64,000 nt of DNA, taken from assembly GCA_028823175.1 (NCBI GenBank), contig JAPKBZ010000016.1, positions 1 through 64,000 of the forward strand, read 5' to 3'. Both the position numbers and the translations under genes were made by a program. Of this stretch, positions 50,189-58,073 are shown one piece after another. Below the pieces are notes generated by a model. It was not told the DNA's origin and made no database searches. It saw nothing but the letters and a program-made list of their open reading frames with translations. Source of the stretch: Myxococcota bacterium. GTDB taxonomy: Bacteria; Myxococcota_A; UBA9160; UBA4427. Each line of letters begins with the position of its first letter. The first letter of the stretch is position 1.

Positions 50189-52468
50189 TCAGGTGTCAGA
50201 GCCAGGGCTTCTTCGAACGAGAAGGGCGGGCAACAGGCTGGTATCGGCCAGGAAGCACAGAATCATAATGCCCGAAGTGAGGAGCCCGAGGTTTCGGGTG
50301 ATGGAGAACTCGGAGAAGCCCAGGACGAGGAAGGCTCCCGCAATCATCGCTGTGGTGCTCGCGATGGCGGGCAGCACCTCTTTGAAGGTTTCGTCGAGGG
50401 CCCGGCGGGCAGAGGCCCCCGACTCGGTTCGCGTATGGAAACCGTTGACGACATGAATCGTATCATCGACGGCGACTCCAAGGGCGAGGCAGCCAATCAG
50501 CGCGGTACCCGCGTCGAGGGGAATTCGGAACAAGCCCAGAGCGCCAAATATCAGCCACAACGGGATCGCGTTGGGAATCAGAGCGAGAAGGGCGAGGCGA
50601 GGCGAGCGGAAAATGAGGAGAAGCACGGCGGAAATGGCGAGCAGGGCCACGACCAGACCTCGAAGTTGCCCGTAGGCAATTTCGTCCTCCGCCCGGGCGA
50701 ATTCGTACATGATGCCCGTGGTCGCGAGTCGGTGATCTTCGGGCCCGTGGCGGGCCCACCAGGTTTCGGCCGAATCTCGGATTCCGGTCAGGTGGGCGGA
50801 GCCATTATTGTCTGCCCGGATCATGATATTCGTCGCCGATCGATCGAAGAGCAGCAGATCGTCCAATTGCTCAAGGGATTCGAGAAGCAGCAGATACTGT
50901 TCGGCCAGGGCTATAGAGCCGGGTAGAGGCTGAGAGGGATCCCCCTGAAAGCCTCCGTGGATTTGCCGAAGCGGATCGGCGACCGATAGGGCCTTGCCCA
51001 CTTCGGGGAGGGATTCGAGGTGGCGGGTGAGTCCGTCGACAGCCGAGAGCGTTTGAGGCTCGAGGACACTTTGGCCAACGGGTGCTGTCACGATGATATT
51101 CATCGGGCTGATGCCCGAGAGGTTCTGACGGATCTCCTCGTAGGCATCCCGGACGGGATTTCCGGTGGGAAGCCAACGGGTCGCATCGGTTTCGACGTCG
51201 ACCCGGGCGATGCCGGGCATCGCCAGGAGGAGGATCCCGGCCCAGAGGGCCAGAACCGCACCGGGCCGGCGTCCAATCGGGCCGAGCAGGGCGGGAGCCA
51301 GCCGGGTCTGGACCCATAAAAACCCCCTCGGCTGGCCGCGTAGACCCGGGCTGAGCGCCAGGCCCGCTGGAAGCAGGGTCAGGCAAAGAGCGGTGACGAT
51401 CAGGACGCCCAGGGCTCCAAAGCCCCCGGTCATGCGAACCGCTTCGATGCGGACGAAGGTAATCGCCAGCAGGCCAAGCGCTGTGGTGAGTCCAGAGAGG
51501 GCGACGGGCAGGCTCACCCGGGCGAGGGCATCGGCCAGGGGCGCCGAGGCCGCGGGGTTGTCATCGTCTCCCGCAGCCCCGGCTGCGACTAGGAAATGCA
51601 TCGAGTAGGCGCAGCCCAGGGCCAGAATGATCGAGGGAAGGACCATCGTGGTGATGCCGAGGGGCGCGCCGAGATAACCCATGGCGGCGAGGAGGAAGAG
51701 CGATCCAAGGGTGCCCGGCATTAATCCGAGAACGATCGCGACGGCCGAGCGAAAGAGGACAAAGAGAAAGAGGGCGATCAGAAGCCCCGTAATGGGAGCG
51801 AAGTAGACGATCTCTGTGCGCGTGCGGTCGTTGGCCGCGACGCGAAAGACGGGCACCCCGGACAAAATGCCGCCTACGGGGTCGACCAGCTCGTGGACTT
51901 CCGCGAGTAATTCGGCGTGACGACTCTCGGCCCCGCGTTCCAAGACGAGGTTGATGGCGAGGATACGACCATCGCCGGCCACCAGGCTGCGGGGGGCAAT
52001 GCGATCGGTGGCCAGGCGTTCGCGGACCCGGTGGGATCGCTCCTCTGGGTTCTCGATCGAGTCCTCGAGGGCGGGCTCGAGTTCAAGGTCGCCCTGGGTG
52101 TTGACGAAAACAACGGGGACTGTTCCGATGCTGTCGACCCGCCGGATCCCCTCGAGATCCTCGAAGCGCTCGCCGAGCCTGCTCACTTCGTTCAACAACT
52201 CCGGGTCGAACGGCTGCTCGGCCTCGAGGGCGACGACGATGATTTCGTCGCCTCCGAAATCCTCCTGACTCTGCTGATAGACCTGCCACGCGGGGTGATG
52301 GCGATCGAGCACACTGTCTGTCGAGGTGTCGACCTCGAGTTGCAGCAGGCCGGGGAGGGCAAGCAGTGTGAGCAGAGCCCAGACCGCGATGGTCGCCCCA
52401 GGTCGCCGGAGACCGAGGGCCGTCAGGGCCAGCGGGATGCGTGAGCGCCGCGCCGTGTTTTTTGCCAA
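50189..52468 (-). CDS. RND/MMPL family exporter
   Basis: 759 residues with two homologous halves, each with one leading TM segment, a periplasmic loop (TDSVLDRHHPAWQVYQQSQEDFGGDEI, and TDATRWLPTGNPVRDAYEEI in the second) and a six-TM block. Sterol-sensing/MMPL signatures appear in both halves (GITTMVLPSIILALGCAYSMHFL; GVAVDDTIHVVNGFH). Exporters of this kind move lipids, hopanoids or signals; LolA-like proteins are frequent partners. The TTG start has AAGGAG ahead. No outer-membrane channel or membrane fusion gene is adjacent. Confidence 0.9.
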   Translation of the reverse strand: MAKNTARRSRIPLALTALGLRRPGATIAVWALLTLLALPGLLQLEVDTSTDSVLDRHHPAWQVYQQSQEDFGGDEIIVVALEAEQPFDPELLNEVSRLGERFEDLEGIRRVDSIGTVPVVFVNTQGDLELEPALEDSIENPEERSHRVRERLATDRIAPRSLVAGDGRILAINLVLERGAESRHAELLAEVHELVDPVGGILSGVPVFRVAANDRTRTEIVYFAPITGLLIALFLFVLFRSAVAIVLGLMPGTLGSLFLLAAMGYLGAPLGITTMVLPSIILALGCAYSMHFLVAAGAAGDDDNPAASAPLADALARVSLPVALSGLTTALGLLAITFVRIEAVRMTGGFGALGVLIVTALCLTLLPAGLALSPGLRGQPRGFLWVQTRLAPALLGPIGRRPGAVLALWAGILLLAMPGIARVDVETDATRWLPTGNPVRDAYEEIRQNLSGISPMNIIVTAPVGQSVLEPQTLSAVDGLTRHLESLPEVGKALSVADPLRQIHGGFQGDPSQPLPGSIALAEQYLLLLESLEQLDDLLLFDRSATNIMIRADNNGSAHLTGIRDSAETWWARHGPEDHRLATTGIMYEFARAEDEIAYGQLRGLVVALLAISAVLLLIFRSPRLALLALIPNAIPLWLIFGALGLFRIPLDAGTALIGCLALGVAVDDTIHVVNGFHTRTESGASARRALDETFKEVLPAIASTTAMIAGAFLVLGFSEFSITRNLGLLTSGIMILCFLADTSLLPALLVRRSPGSDT

Positions 52469-52708
52469 TTGAGTCCCGCTCCTTCGACCGATTCAGCGCG
52501 CGTTCGCCGGATCCCGCCCCGCTCGGGCCGGAGGGATGGGCGAACTCCCCCGAGGTGGCGCGGGCGGGAGAATAGAACACGCCAGGCCTGGGTCGGAGTT
52601 GCCCGGCCAACTGCCTATTCCCCCCTGGCGAGGGTAGGCCATGACTTGGCCGAGAGGCGGCCCCGGCACGGTTCTAAGGGTGGAAATGCCCGCATCCTAT
52701 GGCATATT

Positions 52709-52734
52709 CTTGGGGCTTCGTATTACCCCCCAAG
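52709..52734. promoter_or_regulatory. Inverted repeat before the PilZ fusion gene
   Basis: CTTGGGG (52709-52715) and CCCCAAG (52728-52734) form a 7-bp inverted repeat with a 12-base AT-rich centre, 45 bases before the chosen start at 52779. It may be an operator or a leader hairpin. No regulator is identified. Confidence 0.4.
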
Positions 52735-52778
52735 CTTTACGTTGCCAGGCGGTCAGGGCCGCCGGCTTGGAAGGGTCC

Positions 52779-55208
52779 ATGTTAAGCAGGTCGACGCCCA
52801 TCCATGAGGGTGCCCTTCGCCGTCTGCACCCCGACACCCTCGAGGACGCCGCCCGGATTCGGGCGCTCTTCGTTCGCGCTCGTGACGAGGGTACGGATTT
52901 TCATCGCGGGCTCAACAGCCGAGCAGACCTCGAAGTGGCCGTGCTCGAAGAAGTCCTGGACGACGAGCTCGTCTTCCGGACTAAGAATTTCGATCGCGCG
53001 TCCATTGGGGAACAGGTTTTCCTGAATTTTACCAGTGCCGGGCGCCCCTATTTTTTCGCCACGCGCCCCTTGTCGAACCTCCACGAGGGAAGGCTTCGGG
53101 TAAAGCTTCCGGCGGCGATCTTCTACGGTGAGCGTAGAGATCGGGCTCGCCGTCCCCCCGACGGAGGGGCCGGCGATCCGAGCCGGGTAGAGGTCGAGGA
53201 TGGCCAGGGCGGCTATCACAAGGCCTGGGTCGAGGACGTTTCGCCTTCGGGCCTCGGCCTGCTGATCGAGACCGATGCAATTCCTGAGCAGCCGGTCAAG
53301 GTGCGCTTCCTGGACGGGCAGAATTCTGGGGCCGAGCTCCAGCTTGAATTGCGAAATCACCAGCCCGCCGAAGGCCGACAGGGCTGGACCCGCTACGGCC
53401 TCTCTCGCCATCTGCCAGCCCCGGTGAACCCGGTCGAGGTCGAGGAGTTCGACGAGTTGGCCTTGGAGGTCGCCCCCGATCCCGCATACCCTGGAGTCGA
53501 AGATCCGAGAGTCGTGCGCATCAGGAACGGTTCGGGCGAAGAGATCGTGGGGCTCGTGGATGCCTGGGGCGACTCGGGCGCTCGAACCGCAGTCGTGATG
53601 CCCAATGGGTGGGGGCAGACCAAGGAGGTCCTGCTGCCGCTGGCGCGGACCCTGGTCACCACCTTTCGGGGGAACGAGGAGGACGTGGTCGTCCTCCGCT
53701 ATGACGGCACCCAGCGCCGGGGAGAATCCCACAAGGGGCCCGAGCCCCAAGCGCCCGGGCTGGAAAGCCGCGATTTCGTTTTCTCCCAGGGCGTTCGCGA
53801 TCTCGAGGCTGTGGTGGCCTATATGCGGGATTCAGAGGAATGGGGAGTTTCCAGACTGATTGTGGTGAGCTTCAGCGCTGCGGCCATCGAGGTTCGAAAA
53901 ACCGTTGCTCGGGACGGGGGCCGGACCATCGACGGCTGGGTGAGTGTGGTGGGCTCGCCGGATCTCCAGAGCATGTCCCGATCGATTTCAGGAGGCATCG
54001 ACTTCATTGCTGGCCATGAACTCGGCCTCGAGTTCGGGCTCCAGGAATTGCTCGGCGTCACACTGGATGTCGACAAGGTGGTGAAGGATGCCAAGTCGCA
54101 CGGCATGGCCTTTGTCGAGGATGCGGGTCGGGATTTCGCAGCCACCGATATTCCCATTACCTGGTACCACGGTCGTCACGACGCCTGGGTCGATTTGGCC
54201 CGGGTTCAGAGCGTGCTCTCGCACGGAGACACGAGTCGTCGCCGCCTGGTGGTCGTCCCCACCGGGCACCAGCTGCGGAGCAGCAAGCAAGCAAGCCAAG
54301 TCTTTCAGTGCATCGCTCGAGAAGTCGGTCGTATGGCCCTTGGCCGGGATTTCTCGCCGCAGTCGCCTTCGGCGCGCGAGGTCCGGCGATTGCGAGCGGC
54401 AGAGCGACGCCGTCTGCCGAGCGAGGAGACGGACCTTCACGCGTTTTGGGTGGATTATCTCGTCGGGCGCGATCGGTCCGTGGGCATCGAATTACTGACC
54501 GCCAGCAACGCCTATCGGAATTTGATGGCCGAACAGATCGCAGCCCTCGAGCTCGGGCCGGACCAGCGGGTCGTCGACCTCGGCTCGGGAACGGGGAGCT
54601 TTGCCCTGGGGTTGGCGGCCTGGCCCGAGCGGCCTTCCGGACTTCGGGTCACTGCCTTCGACTACGTCGAGGACGCCCTGCGACGCTCCCGGAGTCGGGT
54701 GGCTGCCCGTCCGGGCGGCGCTGATTTCGTTTTCGAGTGTGCCGAGGCCAACTTGAATTTGCTCGCCCGGGGCCAGCATATTCCGGTCGCCGACGGGGGG
54801 GCGGACCGCGTTCTGGCCTCCCTGCTGCTCTCCTACCTCGAAGTGCCCACCCGGCTCCTCGAGGAGGCCTTCCGAATCCTGCGGCCGGGCGGACGTCTGG
54901 TGATCTCCTCCCTTTGCCGAGATGCCGACATCAGCGGCCTCTACGTGGAGGCCTACGCCGAACTCCAGGCCGGGGACGCGGTGGCGGCCCTGCCCGAATT
55001 ACAGGCCCTGGAGCTCGGCGACCTGGCGCGAAATTTCCTCAACGACGCGGCGAAGATCCTCGAGTTCGAGGACTCCGGGGCTTTTCATTTCTGGGAGCCC
55101 GACGAGCTCGCTGACATCGTCCGGGCGTGCGGTTTTCAGGACGTGCGGACCCTCCGCAGCCTCGGTACTCCCCCCCAGGCGGTGGTGTTGGCTGCCCTTA
55201 GACCCTGA
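52779..55208 (+). CDS. PilZ - LuxD-like acyltransferase - methyltransferase fusion
   Basis: 809 residues with three modules. (1) Residues 1 to about 215: a YcgR-N/PilZ-like part; the c-di-GMP motifs RRxxxR (RRDRAR, 119-124) and DxSxxG (DVSPSG, 153-158) are both complete. (2) About 220-520: an alpha/beta hydrolase like LuxD myristoyl-acyltransferase/thioesterase: VVVLRYDGTQRRGES, nucleophile region VVSFSAAAIEV (Ser366), HGRHDAW (Asp468) and PTGHQL (His497). (3) About 555-809: class I SAM methyltransferase with VVDLGSGTGSF (598-608) and RILRPGGRLVIS. A c-di-GMP-controlled enzyme acting on an acyl substrate is inferred. The start at 52779 has GAAGGG ahead; longer in-frame starts reach 52641. The histidine kinase gene follows by 90 bases. 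Confidence 0.85.
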   Translation: MLSRSTPIHEGALRRLHPDTLEDAARIRALFVRARDEGTDFHRGLNSRADLEVAVLEEVLDDELVFRTKNFDRASIGEQVFLNFTSAGRPYFFATRPLSNLHEGRLRVKLPAAIFYGERRDRARRPPDGGAGDPSRVEVEDGQGGYHKAWVEDVSPSGLGLLIETDAIPEQPVKVRFLDGQNSGAELQLELRNHQPAEGRQGWTRYGLSRHLPAPVNPVEVEEFDELALEVAPDPAYPGVEDPRVVRIRNGSGEEIVGLVDAWGDSGARTAVVMPNGWGQTKEVLLPLARTLVTTFRGNEEDVVVLRYDGTQRRGESHKGPEPQAPGLESRDFVFSQGVRDLEAVVAYMRDSEEWGVSRLIVVSFSAAAIEVRKTVARDGGRTIDGWVSVVGSPDLQSMSRSISGGIDFIAGHELGLEFGLQELLGVTLDVDKVVKDAKSHGMAFVEDAGRDFAATDIPITWYHGRHDAWVDLARVQSVLSHGDTSRRRLVVVPTGHQLRSSKQASQVFQCIAREVGRMALGRDFSPQSPSAREVRRLRAAERRRLPSEETDLHAFWVDYLVGRDRSVGIELLTASNAYRNLMAEQIAALELGPDQRVVDLGSGTGSFALGLAAWPERPSGLRVTAFDYVEDALRRSRSRVAARPGGADFVFECAEANLNLLARGQHIPVADGGADRVLASLLLSYLEVPTRLLEEAFRILRPGGRLVISSLCRDADISGLYVEAYAELQAGDAVAALPELQALELGDLARNFLNDAAKILEFEDSGAFHFWEPDELADIVRACGFQDVRTLRSLGTPPQAVVLAALRP

Positions 55209-55298: not shown

Positions 55299-58073
55299 AT
55301 GGACACGCTTGCCCAACCCCGTTACCGAGAATACCGGGCGCAGGTCGAAGGCGAACTGCTCGCCCCGGCCCTGCGCAACGCGATCCTGATTTTCTTCCTG
55401 CTCCAGACCTTTGTCTTCATTCCGGCGGATTGGCTGCTGCATCCCGACGATTTCGCCTTTTTCCTCGGCTCCCGTCTGGCGATGAACTTCCTGCTCTGGG
55501 TCATCTACTCCTGGGCGGCCCTTCGCTGGCCGGTCGCCTCGGTGGCCGCGGTTTGTGGGCTTGGTTCGCTCCTCTTTATGACGATGGTCGTCCAGACCGG
55601 CGGCGTGACCAGCGGCTATTACGTGGGCATGATTCTGCTGGTTGTTGGGATGGGCGTGATTACCCCGATGGACGCTCGCCAATCCGCGGGCATCGGTGCG
55701 ATGATGTTCGCGAGTTATGCGGCGTTGCCGCTCTATACCTCGGCCGCCGTGTCCTGGGGAGCCTTCGGTGAAAATCTCTTCTTTCTCGGGGCCGCCTGCG
55801 CCGAAGCTTGCTGGGCCGCCATGCACATGGATCGCATGCGCTATGCGGATTATTGCCAGAAGCGTGCGCTCGAAGAGGCCAGGGATGAACTCGCCCAACT
55901 CGATCGAGCCAAGTCGCGCTTCAGTGCAAATGTTCACCACGAACTGCGGACTCCGCTGACCCTGATCCTCGCGCCTCTCGACGCCCTGAGAACGGGCGAA
56001 TTTGGGAGACTCCCCGTCGAGGTTCAGAAAACGATCGACATGATGCTCAGCAACGGTCGCCGGCTCCACCGGATGATCAATAATCTGCTGGATCTTGCCA
56101 AGCTCGAGAATGAGCAGTTTGCCATTCAACGCCAGCCGTTTCAGCTCGGCCCCATGGTGGGTGAATTGCTTTCTAGTGCCCGGCCCCTGGCGGATCGCAA
56201 GGCGATCGAGCTCAGTATGGAGGGTTTTGATTCGCTGCCGGAAATCAACGCCGACGCCGTTGCGATCGACAAGGTTTTGGTGAATCTCCTGGGGAATGCC
56301 CTGAAGTTCACCGAGGCTCATGGTCAGGTCAAGATTTCTGCGCGAGCCGACTCGGATGGAATCAAGCTCGCTGTTGCGGACACCGGGGTCGGCATTCCCG
56401 TGACTAAGCTCTCGGCGGTTTTTGATCGTTTCGCGCAGGTGGACGATTCTGCGACCCGTCGTCACGAAGGGACGGGAATCGGCCTCGCGCTGACCCGGGA
56501 AATGGTAGAGCTTCATGGTGGCCAGATTTGGGCGGCCAGCGCGGGTGAAGGGCAGGGAACAACGATTCACTTCACACTGCCTTGGGGCGAGCCCGACGTG
56601 GGGCTCGACGAAGAGATCCTTCGCGATGATCGAGGCGCTACCGCTCATCTGGAAGATTCGCCCGCTCTCTTGGCCAGAGAACCGCAGCAGGGGGGCGAGG
56701 GCGAGCCGGCTTCGCCGCCGCGCGCGCTGCCCGATATCGATCGATCGCTCCTCCGCTGGGCCGACCAGGAGGAGGACGAACCCGAGAGTCGGGTGCCCGC
56801 TCTTCCTCGGAGTTCAGCGAGTCGGGGCCAGGTACTGATCGCCGAAGACAACCCGGATATGCGCTCGTTGCTCGCTGCTCTGGTCGGGCGGGAGTTTGAG
56901 GTCCGCACCGCGCGCAACGGGAGAGAAGCGCTCGAAGCTGTGCGCGAGTCGCCTCCCGATCTCGTTCTCTCGGATGTGATGATGCCCGAGGTTTCCGGCT
57001 TGGAACTTTGCCAAGCCATAAAGGGCGACCCGGAGCTGCGTCGAATCCCCGTAGTGCTTGTCACATCCAAGGCCGAGCGTGATGTGAAGATCGAAGGTCT
57101 TGAACTTGGGGCCGACGACTATGTGACGAAACCCTTTCATCCCAGGGAGCTTCTCGCCCGGGTTCGGTCTCTCGTTCGGGTGACCAGCCTCCAAAGAGAG
57201 CTCGCTGGCCGAAATAGTGAACTCGAATCGGCACTAGGGGAACTGAAGCAGGCCGAAGTCCAACTGGTTCAGTCCGAACGCCTTGCGGCGGTGGGCGAGT
57301 TGGCTGCGGGCCTGGCGCACGAAGTCAATAATCCCGTCAATTTCGCTCTTAATGCGGTGCGCGCCCTGGAAGTCACGGTGCGCGAGTTGAGGGAGTTCGC
57401 CGAGGGTATGATGTCGCTGGATGCATCGGACGCCGATGGACTCGCTCGCCGCCTGGAAGAGTTTCAGCGGGATATGGGCGGACAACACGCCGGCGAGTTG
57501 GCCGAGACCGTTTTGGAGTTGTCGGGAATCGTAGGCGAAGGGCTCAAACGAACTTCTGCTCTAGTGGGCGATCTGCGCGAATTTGCTCGGCCCGGGAGCC
57601 GGGGCGAGACCCAGACGGACGTCAATGTCGAGGCCGGCCTGCGTTCGACCCTGACCCTCGTCGGTCACGCCATCGCCGCCGCCAATGCCGAACTCGATGT
57701 TCAGATCGAGCCGGGGTTGCCAGGATTGGCTGGAGATCCGGGAGGCCTGAATCAGGTTTACCTGAATCTCCTGAAGAACGCCGTCGAGGCCCTCGGTCCG
57801 AGGGGGGGGACTATCCGAGTGAGGGCGGCTCGGGAGGCGGAGCACGTTTCGATCCGCATCGGCGACGACGGCCAGGGAATCGCTCCCGAGATCAGGGAGC
57901 GGCTCTTCGAGCCCTTCTTTACCACCAAGGACGCGGCGGGAGGAACCGGGCTGGGGCTCGCGATCTGCCAGCGCATCGTGGATGACCACGGAGGTACCCT
58001 GACCCTAGAGAGTGAGGAGGGCCGGGGCGCTGAATTCATCGTTCGCCTCCCGGTTCCGGAAGCCTCGGAATGA
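55299..58073 (+). CDS. Hybrid sensor histidine kinase, kinase-receiver-kinase
   Basis: 924 residues. Six hydrophobic segments (about residues 24-175) form a membrane sensor; a short coiled coil leads to a first kinase with His214 in HHELRTPL, N box LLGNALKF, G boxes DTGVGIP and GTGIGLAL. After an acidic linker (about 430-505) comes a receiver domain with Asp559 in LSDVMMP and Lys611 in TKPF. A coiled coil (632-662) leads to a second kinase of NtrB/ZraS type with His674 in GLAHEVNNP, LLKNAVEAL, and GTGLGLAI. Two kinases around one receiver allow internal phosphate flow. No separate output regulator is adjacent. Ribosome site weak. Confidence 0.93.
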   Translation: MDTLAQPRYREYRAQVEGELLAPALRNAILIFFLLQTFVFIPADWLLHPDDFAFFLGSRLAMNFLLWVIYSWAALRWPVASVAAVCGLGSLLFMTMVVQTGGVTSGYYVGMILLVVGMGVITPMDARQSAGIGAMMFASYAALPLYTSAAVSWGAFGENLFFLGAACAEACWAAMHMDRMRYADYCQKRALEEARDELAQLDRAKSRFSANVHHELRTPLTLILAPLDALRTGEFGRLPVEVQKTIDMMLSNGRRLHRMINNLLDLAKLENEQFAIQRQPFQLGPMVGELLSSARPLADRKAIELSMEGFDSLPEINADAVAIDKVLVNLLGNALKFTEAHGQVKISARADSDGIKLAVADTGVGIPVTKLSAVFDRFAQVDDSATRRHEGTGIGLALTREMVELHGGQIWAASAGEGQGTTIHFTLPWGEPDVGLDEEILRDDRGATAHLEDSPALLAREPQQGGEGEPASPPRALPDIDRSLLRWADQEEDEPESRVPALPRSSASRGQVLIAEDNPDMRSLLAALVGREFEVRTARNGREALEAVRESPPDLVLSDVMMPEVSGLELCQAIKGDPELRRIPVVLVTSKAERDVKIEGLELGADDYVTKPFHPRELLARVRSLVRVTSLQRELAGRNSELESALGELKQAEVQLVQSERLAAVGELAAGLAHEVNNPVNFALNAVRALEVTVRELREFAEGMMSLDASDADGLARRLEEFQRDMGGQHAGELAETVLELSGIVGEGLKRTSALVGDLREFARPGSRGETQTDVNVEAGLRSTLTLVGHAIAAANAELDVQIEPGLPGLAGDPGGLNQVYLNLLKNAVEALGPRGGTIRVRAAREAEHVSIRIGDDGQGIAPEIRERLFEPFFTTKDAAGGTGLGLAICQRIVDDHGGTLTLESEEGRGAEFIVRLPVPEASE

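Follow-up and report, generated by a model that had tools for sequence, protein, structure and literature searches.

A PilZ–LuxD-like hydrolase–methyltransferase protein and its neighbouring membrane kinase suggest a c-di-GMP-controlled lipid system in a little-known group of Myxococcota

Results

Organization of the locus and integrity of the three-part protein

The window analysed in the current work, a stretch of 64,000 nucleotides, contains a gene whose product combines a YcgR-type PilZ module, a LuxD-like alpha/beta hydrolase domain and a class I SAM-dependent methyltransferase domain, and which is flanked by genes for an MMPL-type transporter and a membrane hybrid histidine kinase (Table 1). 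The architecture of this protein, the conservation of its motifs, its fused state and its gene neighbourhood are firm observations. The reading frame is open from position 52641 and the ORF is intact, while the assigned ATG start is supported by an upstream GGAAGG resembling a ribosome-binding site and by the N-terminal sequence MLSRSTPI, which is identical in four relatives placed in the same genus.

Table 1 Features of the locus and of the replacement cassettes found in other genomes
Feature	Position	Strand	Basis or remark
Three-part protein (YcgR-N + PilZ, LuxD-like alpha/beta hydrolase, class I SAM methyltransferase)	52779..55208	+	809 aa, one ORF
YcgR-N-like N-terminal domain	52806..53114	+	~residues 10-112; Foldseek matches over the full length to YcgR, PP4397, MrkH and VCA0042, and a match to isolated YcgR-N (5y6h)
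PilZ domain	53115..53423	+	~residues 113-215; Pfam in relatives, fold match, dN/dS 0.04
PilZ c-di-GMP motif RRxxxR	53133..53150	+	residues 119-124; R120/R124 invariant in the ~800-aa clade
PilZ c-di-GMP motif DxSxxG (DVSPSG)	53235..53252	+	residues 153-158; as D/NxSxxG, lacking from a single member of the ~800-aa clade
LuxD-like acyl thioesterase/transferase domain	53508..54413	+	~residues 244-545; profile, and Foldseek against 1THT
Nucleophile Ser366 codon	53874..53876	+	invariant in 43/43; opposite the LuxD nucleophile region in the alignment; predicted catalytic
Asp468 codon	54180..54182	+	invariant in 43/43; predicted catalytic
His497 codon	54267..54269	+	invariant in 43/43; predicted catalytic
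Class I SAM-dependent methyltransferase domain	54414..55205	+	residues 546-809; Pfam Methyltransf_11, 4e-13; found in 43/43 relatives
Membrane hybrid histidine kinase (TM sensor, HisKA/HATPase, REC, second HATPase region)	55299..58073	+	beside the enzyme in 39/40 loci
MMPL/RND (HAE3-like) transporter, divergent neighbour	50189..52468	-	follows the enzyme gene within its operon in 13 loci of the order
Intergenic region common to the divergent transporter and enzyme genes	52469..52778	.	no sigma-70-type site found
Replacement cassettes (PilZ-type methyltransferase + CMAS homologue)	L125:8461-10853, L126:7776-10135, L134:3000-6500		other genomes

Relatives were retrieved by a whole-genome search within the phylum, which yielded full-length proteins of about 800-900 residues and 34-92% identity in the same genus, family and order, together with longer forms of about 910-1170 residues in other families. 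Those close relatives that have named records are Myxococcota metagenome-assembled genomes; three loci came from one contig scan beyond the phylum set, a scan sensitive to close relatives only, and no plasmid homologue of the full protein was found. Twelve residues (P111, E118, R119, R120, R124, G158, S366, D468, H497, D600, G602 and G604) are invariant in the 27 full-length members aligned, and seven of these (R124, G158, S366, D468, H497, G602 and G604) remain invariant when the alignment is extended to 43 members including the long forms.

As judged from a comparison with a relative of 92% identity, all three domains are under purifying selection, with a dN/dS of ~0.10 for the whole protein and of 0.04, 0.11 and 0.12 for the PilZ, hydrolase and methyltransferase parts, respectively, and 0.18 for a 22-residue linker. 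A fusion generated by misassembly or by a frameshift was ruled out because the 27 full-length homologues are collinear across the range of identities given above and because purifying selection is uniform along the protein. The gene appears split in one genome (G346, loci L030 and L055), which was dismissed as a scaffolding or masking gap because both ORFs run into X stretches. A structural model of the full protein attained a pLDDT of 87 and a pTM of 0.84. Pfam applied to the window protein by itself returned methyltransferase matches only, and assignment of the PilZ and LuxD-like domains therefore required the relatives.

The N-terminal module resembles YcgR-type c-di-GMP receptors

PF07238 (PilZ) scores in 29 of the 43 relatives, and a profile of residues 1-222 searched against the PDB retrieved mainly PilZ proteins, with weak E-values. 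An AlphaFold2 model of the same residues (pLDDT 86) gave c-di-GMP receptors as its first 18 Foldseek matches in the PDB (YcgR, PP4397, MrkH, MotI/DgrA, PlzA and VCA0042), with BcsA and Alg44 also among the fold matches. Whole-module TM-scores are low (~0.4), as expected when two domains differ in orientation, and the assignment as YcgR-type rests on the E-values and on the uniform identity of the Foldseek matches rather than on TM. A fold like that of the YcgR-type receptors was thus confirmed for the model of residues 1-222, and ligand binding is predicted. The module shares with YcgR, PP4397, VCA0042 and MrkH the combination of YcgR-N and PilZ and the presence of both c-di-GMP motifs, whereas those receptors act on motility or transcription and the module studied here is fused to two enzyme domains.

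The long forms carry additional N-terminal sequence, which in one of them (L039) is a second PilZ domain, PF07238 being matched twice. In several long forms the internal PilZ domain is partly degenerate, and an N-terminal copy with RxxxR and D/NxSxxG is present in most, according to a regular-expression test that may be off in individual cases. These patterns suggest that ligand binding is kept under selection in the long forms even where it has been relocated. A PilZ part that serves only as structure or no longer binds its ligand, leaving the enzyme outside c-di-GMP control, is in our judgement quite improbable: although Pfam makes no PilZ call in the window protein and some internal PilZ domains of the long forms have decayed, nearly every member of the ~800-aa clade has both ligand motifs intact, the PilZ part is the most constrained of the protein, most long forms possess the added motif-bearing copy, and c-di-GMP enzymes are encoded both by the window's genome (two GGDEF genes, in addition to seven other PilZ matches elsewhere) and adjacent to the enzyme in 12 loci (see below). 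The enzyme is likely to be c-di-GMP responsive; c-di-GMP would bind the module and either activate or inhibit the enzyme.

The central domain is LuxD-like

When a profile of the middle domain was compared with the PDB, LuxD (1THT), the myristoyl-ACP thioesterase of Vibrio harveyi, ranked first (1.2e-8) with its triad aligned, and the same structure was the first Foldseek match of the full model (1.3e-14, TM 0.79 on the LuxD length). Within the aligned stretches, the Ser-Asp-His triad S366, D468 and H497 occupies positions equivalent to those of LuxD, and the core fold is the same. The domain differs from LuxD in being set between a PilZ and a methyltransferase domain, in being only ~17% identical to it and in lying outside a lux operon. 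PF02273 (Acyl_transf_2, the LuxD family) gave no match in the window protein and matched two of the 43 relatives, with a best E-value of 0.002. The enzyme is likely to act on acyl groups.

Membership of a lux operon was rejected, lux genes not being among the recurrent neighbours of 40 loci. Elsewhere in the genome, at G000:C7:17603-18790, the LuxC family (acyl reductase) is matched with 160 bits, unlinked to the locus. Across 360 Myxococcota genomes, the LuxD-like domain profile matched 56, nearly all with a single copy, and the strong matches lie within a long fused ORF; weak partial matches were obtained in G075 and G079, two pieces at contig ends in G201, and no clear stand-alone LuxD-like domain protein was found in this set.

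The C-terminal methyltransferase

Methyltransf_11 is matched by the window protein with 50 bits, against a cut-off of 21, and the SAM motif DLGSGTG occupies residues 600-606, of which D600, G602 and G604 are the invariant positions in the ~800-aa clade. No substrate-specific signature was found in this domain, the best PDB relatives of which are N- and O-methyltransferases of various kinds.

A fusion of an alpha/beta hydrolase to a SAM methyltransferase that acts on acyl-ACP is known from BioG-BioC of Bacteroides fragilis (PMC3494674), which differs from the present protein in the absence of PilZ, in its hydrolase family and in serving the biotin pathway. This precedent and a weak BioC match are what favour a BioH/BioC-like pair, in which a dicarboxylic acyl-ACP would be masked and unmasked as its methyl ester, a reading that we consider very improbable, as the BioC equivalog reaches 27 bits where its cut-off is 185, the hydrolase matches LuxD and not BioH or BioG, and no biotin genes were recognised among the recurrent neighbours of the 40 loci. 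Identity with BioC/BioH was accordingly rejected.

The first-pass annotation had proposed these three domains in this order, with intact c-di-GMP motifs, from the window sequence by itself. The residues it named (R119-R120-x-x-x-R124, D153-x-S155-x-x-G158, S366, D468, H497 and the SAM motif) are all found at the positions given, and the domain identities, their order and the intactness of the motifs were borne out by profile searches, predicted folds and conservation in relatives. The PilZ fold that it expected in residues 60-215 is present in the model of residues 1-222, the same architecture recurs in the 27 collinear homologues aligned, which are fused rather than separate, and the frameshift or assembly error that it had considered does not occur. 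Its interpretation is supported in part; as a prediction, direct switching of acyl transfer or lipid methylation by c-di-GMP fits all the evidence. It had missed the conserved neighbours, which hold most of the functional information.

Conserved neighbouring genes

Of the 40 loci compared, 39 encode a hybrid histidine kinase, mostly of 830-950 residues, on the same strand as the enzyme, directly after it or one gene further on, and all 39 kinases possess HisKA, HATPase and REC domains. Where the kinase gene follows directly, the gap is about 75-160 bp in the window's own family and in locus L101, and in several long-form loci the two genes overlap by 4 bp. The sensor region of the kinase contains multiple helices, and no large periplasmic domain was apparent in it. 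Its sensor domain (55332-55886 in the window) has no Pfam match in the window protein and represents a conserved single-copy family present in half of the genomes of the order (once each in 39 of 80), and 29 of the 30 genomes matching the enzyme also contain it, the exception being at a contig edge. A PDB search with this domain retrieved no known sensor, and one weak match to a diguanylate cyclase.

The MMPL transporter is present in 20 of the 21 loci of the order. It is encoded between enzyme and kinase in 13 of these, starting 0-7 bp past the enzyme stop codon in nine of the 13, and is divergent in seven, including the window, where a sigma-70 promoter scan of the intergenic region retrieved nothing. 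These genes are often followed by one for a REC-GAF-histidine kinase, which is present in many of the order's loci. In the long forms the kinase is retained and no MMPL gene is adjacent. In view of the operon, a lipid substrate becomes more likely.

Twelve loci of distant lineages (10 of which were checked with Pfam) encode a GGDEF-EAL or EAL protein near the enzyme, in eight cases on the same strand after the kinase, and an HD-GYP domain is fused to two neighbouring kinases; no adjacent GGDEF/EAL gene is present in the loci of the order. The two kinases that end in HD-GYP (L109:11150-14005 and L110:10018-12729), from two distant lineages, resemble an RpfC-RpfG fusion.

Apparent replacement of the enzyme by a PilZ-type methyltransferase and a CMAS homologue

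For genomes that possess the kinase and the transporter and are without the full enzyme, we looked at what occupies its slot, upstream of the transporter. In L125 (G094), L126 (G299) and L134 (G187), this slot encodes a protein that combines a PilZ-type motif with a methyltransferase-like domain, and after it a CMAS homologue (PF02353, E-values of ~1e-52 to 1e-57); PilZ passed in Pfam for L125 only and was assigned from the motif in the translation for L126 and L134, the first gene of L134 having been identified in the reading frames and not by a Pfam call. A fragment resembling the N-terminus of the enzyme lies on another contig of G187. The slot of L127 (G197) encodes a methyltransferase-like protein only, and six further genomes, which break off at a contig end, are uninformative.

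Enzymes of the cyclopropane-fatty-acid-synthase (CMAS) type methylate acyl chains, and this apparent non-orthologous replacement is therefore the best evidence for an acyl-chain substrate, the swap pointing to a fatty-acyl compound. It also bears on the possibility that the enzyme tailors a non-lipid small molecule or polyketide-like metabolite under c-di-GMP control, the hydrolase serving as thioesterase and the methyltransferase as tailoring enzyme. Relatives of the methyltransferase do include the secondary-metabolite enzymes RebM and MitM, but PKS/NRPS synthase genes are not recurrent near the 40 loci and the PilZ and CMAS replacement indicates acyl chains, so that we regard such tailoring as improbable.

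No PhcB match was found for the replacement methyltransferases in NCBIfam, only weak matches including one to a fatty-acid O-methyltransferase at 0.003. Homologues of the replacement methyltransferases were observed in L138 (Rhizobium johnstonii pRL12) and L139 (a Pseudanabaena plasmid), one beside a GGDEF phosphodiesterase gene and the other beside genes for a histidine kinase and a response regulator.

Discussion

The reading that we favour, tentatively and at rather less than even confidence, is that c-di-GMP gates the release and methylation of a fatty-acyl product, which is exported and sensed in a Phc-like manner. The YcgR-type PilZ module would bind c-di-GMP and control the enzyme half, in which the LuxD-like domain would use Ser366-Asp468-His497 to cleave off or transfer the fatty-acyl group of an acyl-ACP, an acyl-CoA or an ester, and the C-terminal methyltransferase would methylate the acyl product, for example by making a fatty-acid methyl ester. 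Export of the methylated product would fall to the MMPL transporter, and its monitoring to the adjacent membrane hybrid histidine kinase. With a methyltransferase-made fatty-acid methyl ester and a sensor kinase, the locus would thus work like phcBSR of Ralstonia with a c-di-GMP input on the synthase. The methylated fatty-acyl product, its export, its sensing by the adjacent kinase and the order of the two reactions are presumed steps of this scheme. Three results count against it, namely that the methyltransferase showed no signature of a particular substrate, that the sensor domain bears no recognisable resemblance to known fatty-acid sensors, and that GGDEF/EAL genes are not adjacent in the loci of the order.

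The phc operon consists of phcB (methyltransferase), phcS (sensor kinase), phcR (receiver-kinase) and phcQ, and makes and senses methyl 3-hydroxymyristate (PMC8578825). In gene content, compared by description, both systems place a SAM methyltransferase gene beside genes for a membrane sensor kinase and a receiver-kinase, whereas PhcB is described without PilZ or hydrolase and phcBSRQ without MMPL.

Possible too, if on the doubtful side, is a c-di-GMP-controlled remodelling of membrane or envelope lipids by deacylation or transacylation together with methylation, where the MMPL protein would flip or export lipids and the kinase would sense the membrane, with no cell-cell signal involved. Such remodelling accounts for MMPL and CMAS no less well than signalling does: MMPL/HpnN-like transporters, by family matches, handle lipids, the CMAS homologues of the replacement cassette belong to a family acting on the acyl chains of membrane phospholipids, and the kinase sensor is all-membrane. 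However, the closest solved relative of the hydrolase is an acyl-ACP thioesterase (LuxD) and not a phospholipase, and the retention of the kinase in long forms without adjacent MMPL fits signalling better than export.

If the signalling scheme is taken further, the locus may represent a novel type of autoinducer circuit, a rather doubtful proposal as a whole, in which a one-protein synthase, switched through its PilZ module by c-di-GMP, would release and methylate a fatty-acyl signal that is read by the co-encoded membrane kinase, in some lineages linked to GGDEF-EAL or HD-GYP proteins, thereby coupling c-di-GMP and lipid signalling in a closed loop.

A PilZ domain within, or coupled to, an enzyme, through which c-di-GMP exerts direct post-translational control, is known from BcsA and Alg44, which act in polysaccharide synthesis, as opposed to the acyl hydrolysis and methylation predicted here. 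That a PilZ protein can bring a methyltransferase under c-di-GMP control is known from MapZ, which with c-di-GMP inhibits CheR1 of Pseudomonas aeruginosa (PMC6370697), but there two separate proteins are involved and CheR1 methylates chemoreceptors. In the open-access literature, no description was found of PilZ combined with LuxD, or with an acyltransferase or thioesterase and a methyltransferase, and a 2025 review of c-di-GMP effectors names no acyltransferase or thioesterase (PMC12564702).

The locus is rich in functions for lineages known here mostly from metagenome-assembled genomes, and its content suggests that a lipid modification or a lipid-signal system is under c-di-GMP control in a little-known Myxococcota group. 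The outputs of c-di-GMP are known mostly as motility, polysaccharide synthesis and transcription; an acyl-chain enzyme with a built-in c-di-GMP sensor, its own kinase and often a transporter would, if this is true, link c-di-GMP directly to lipid chemistry or lipid signalling.
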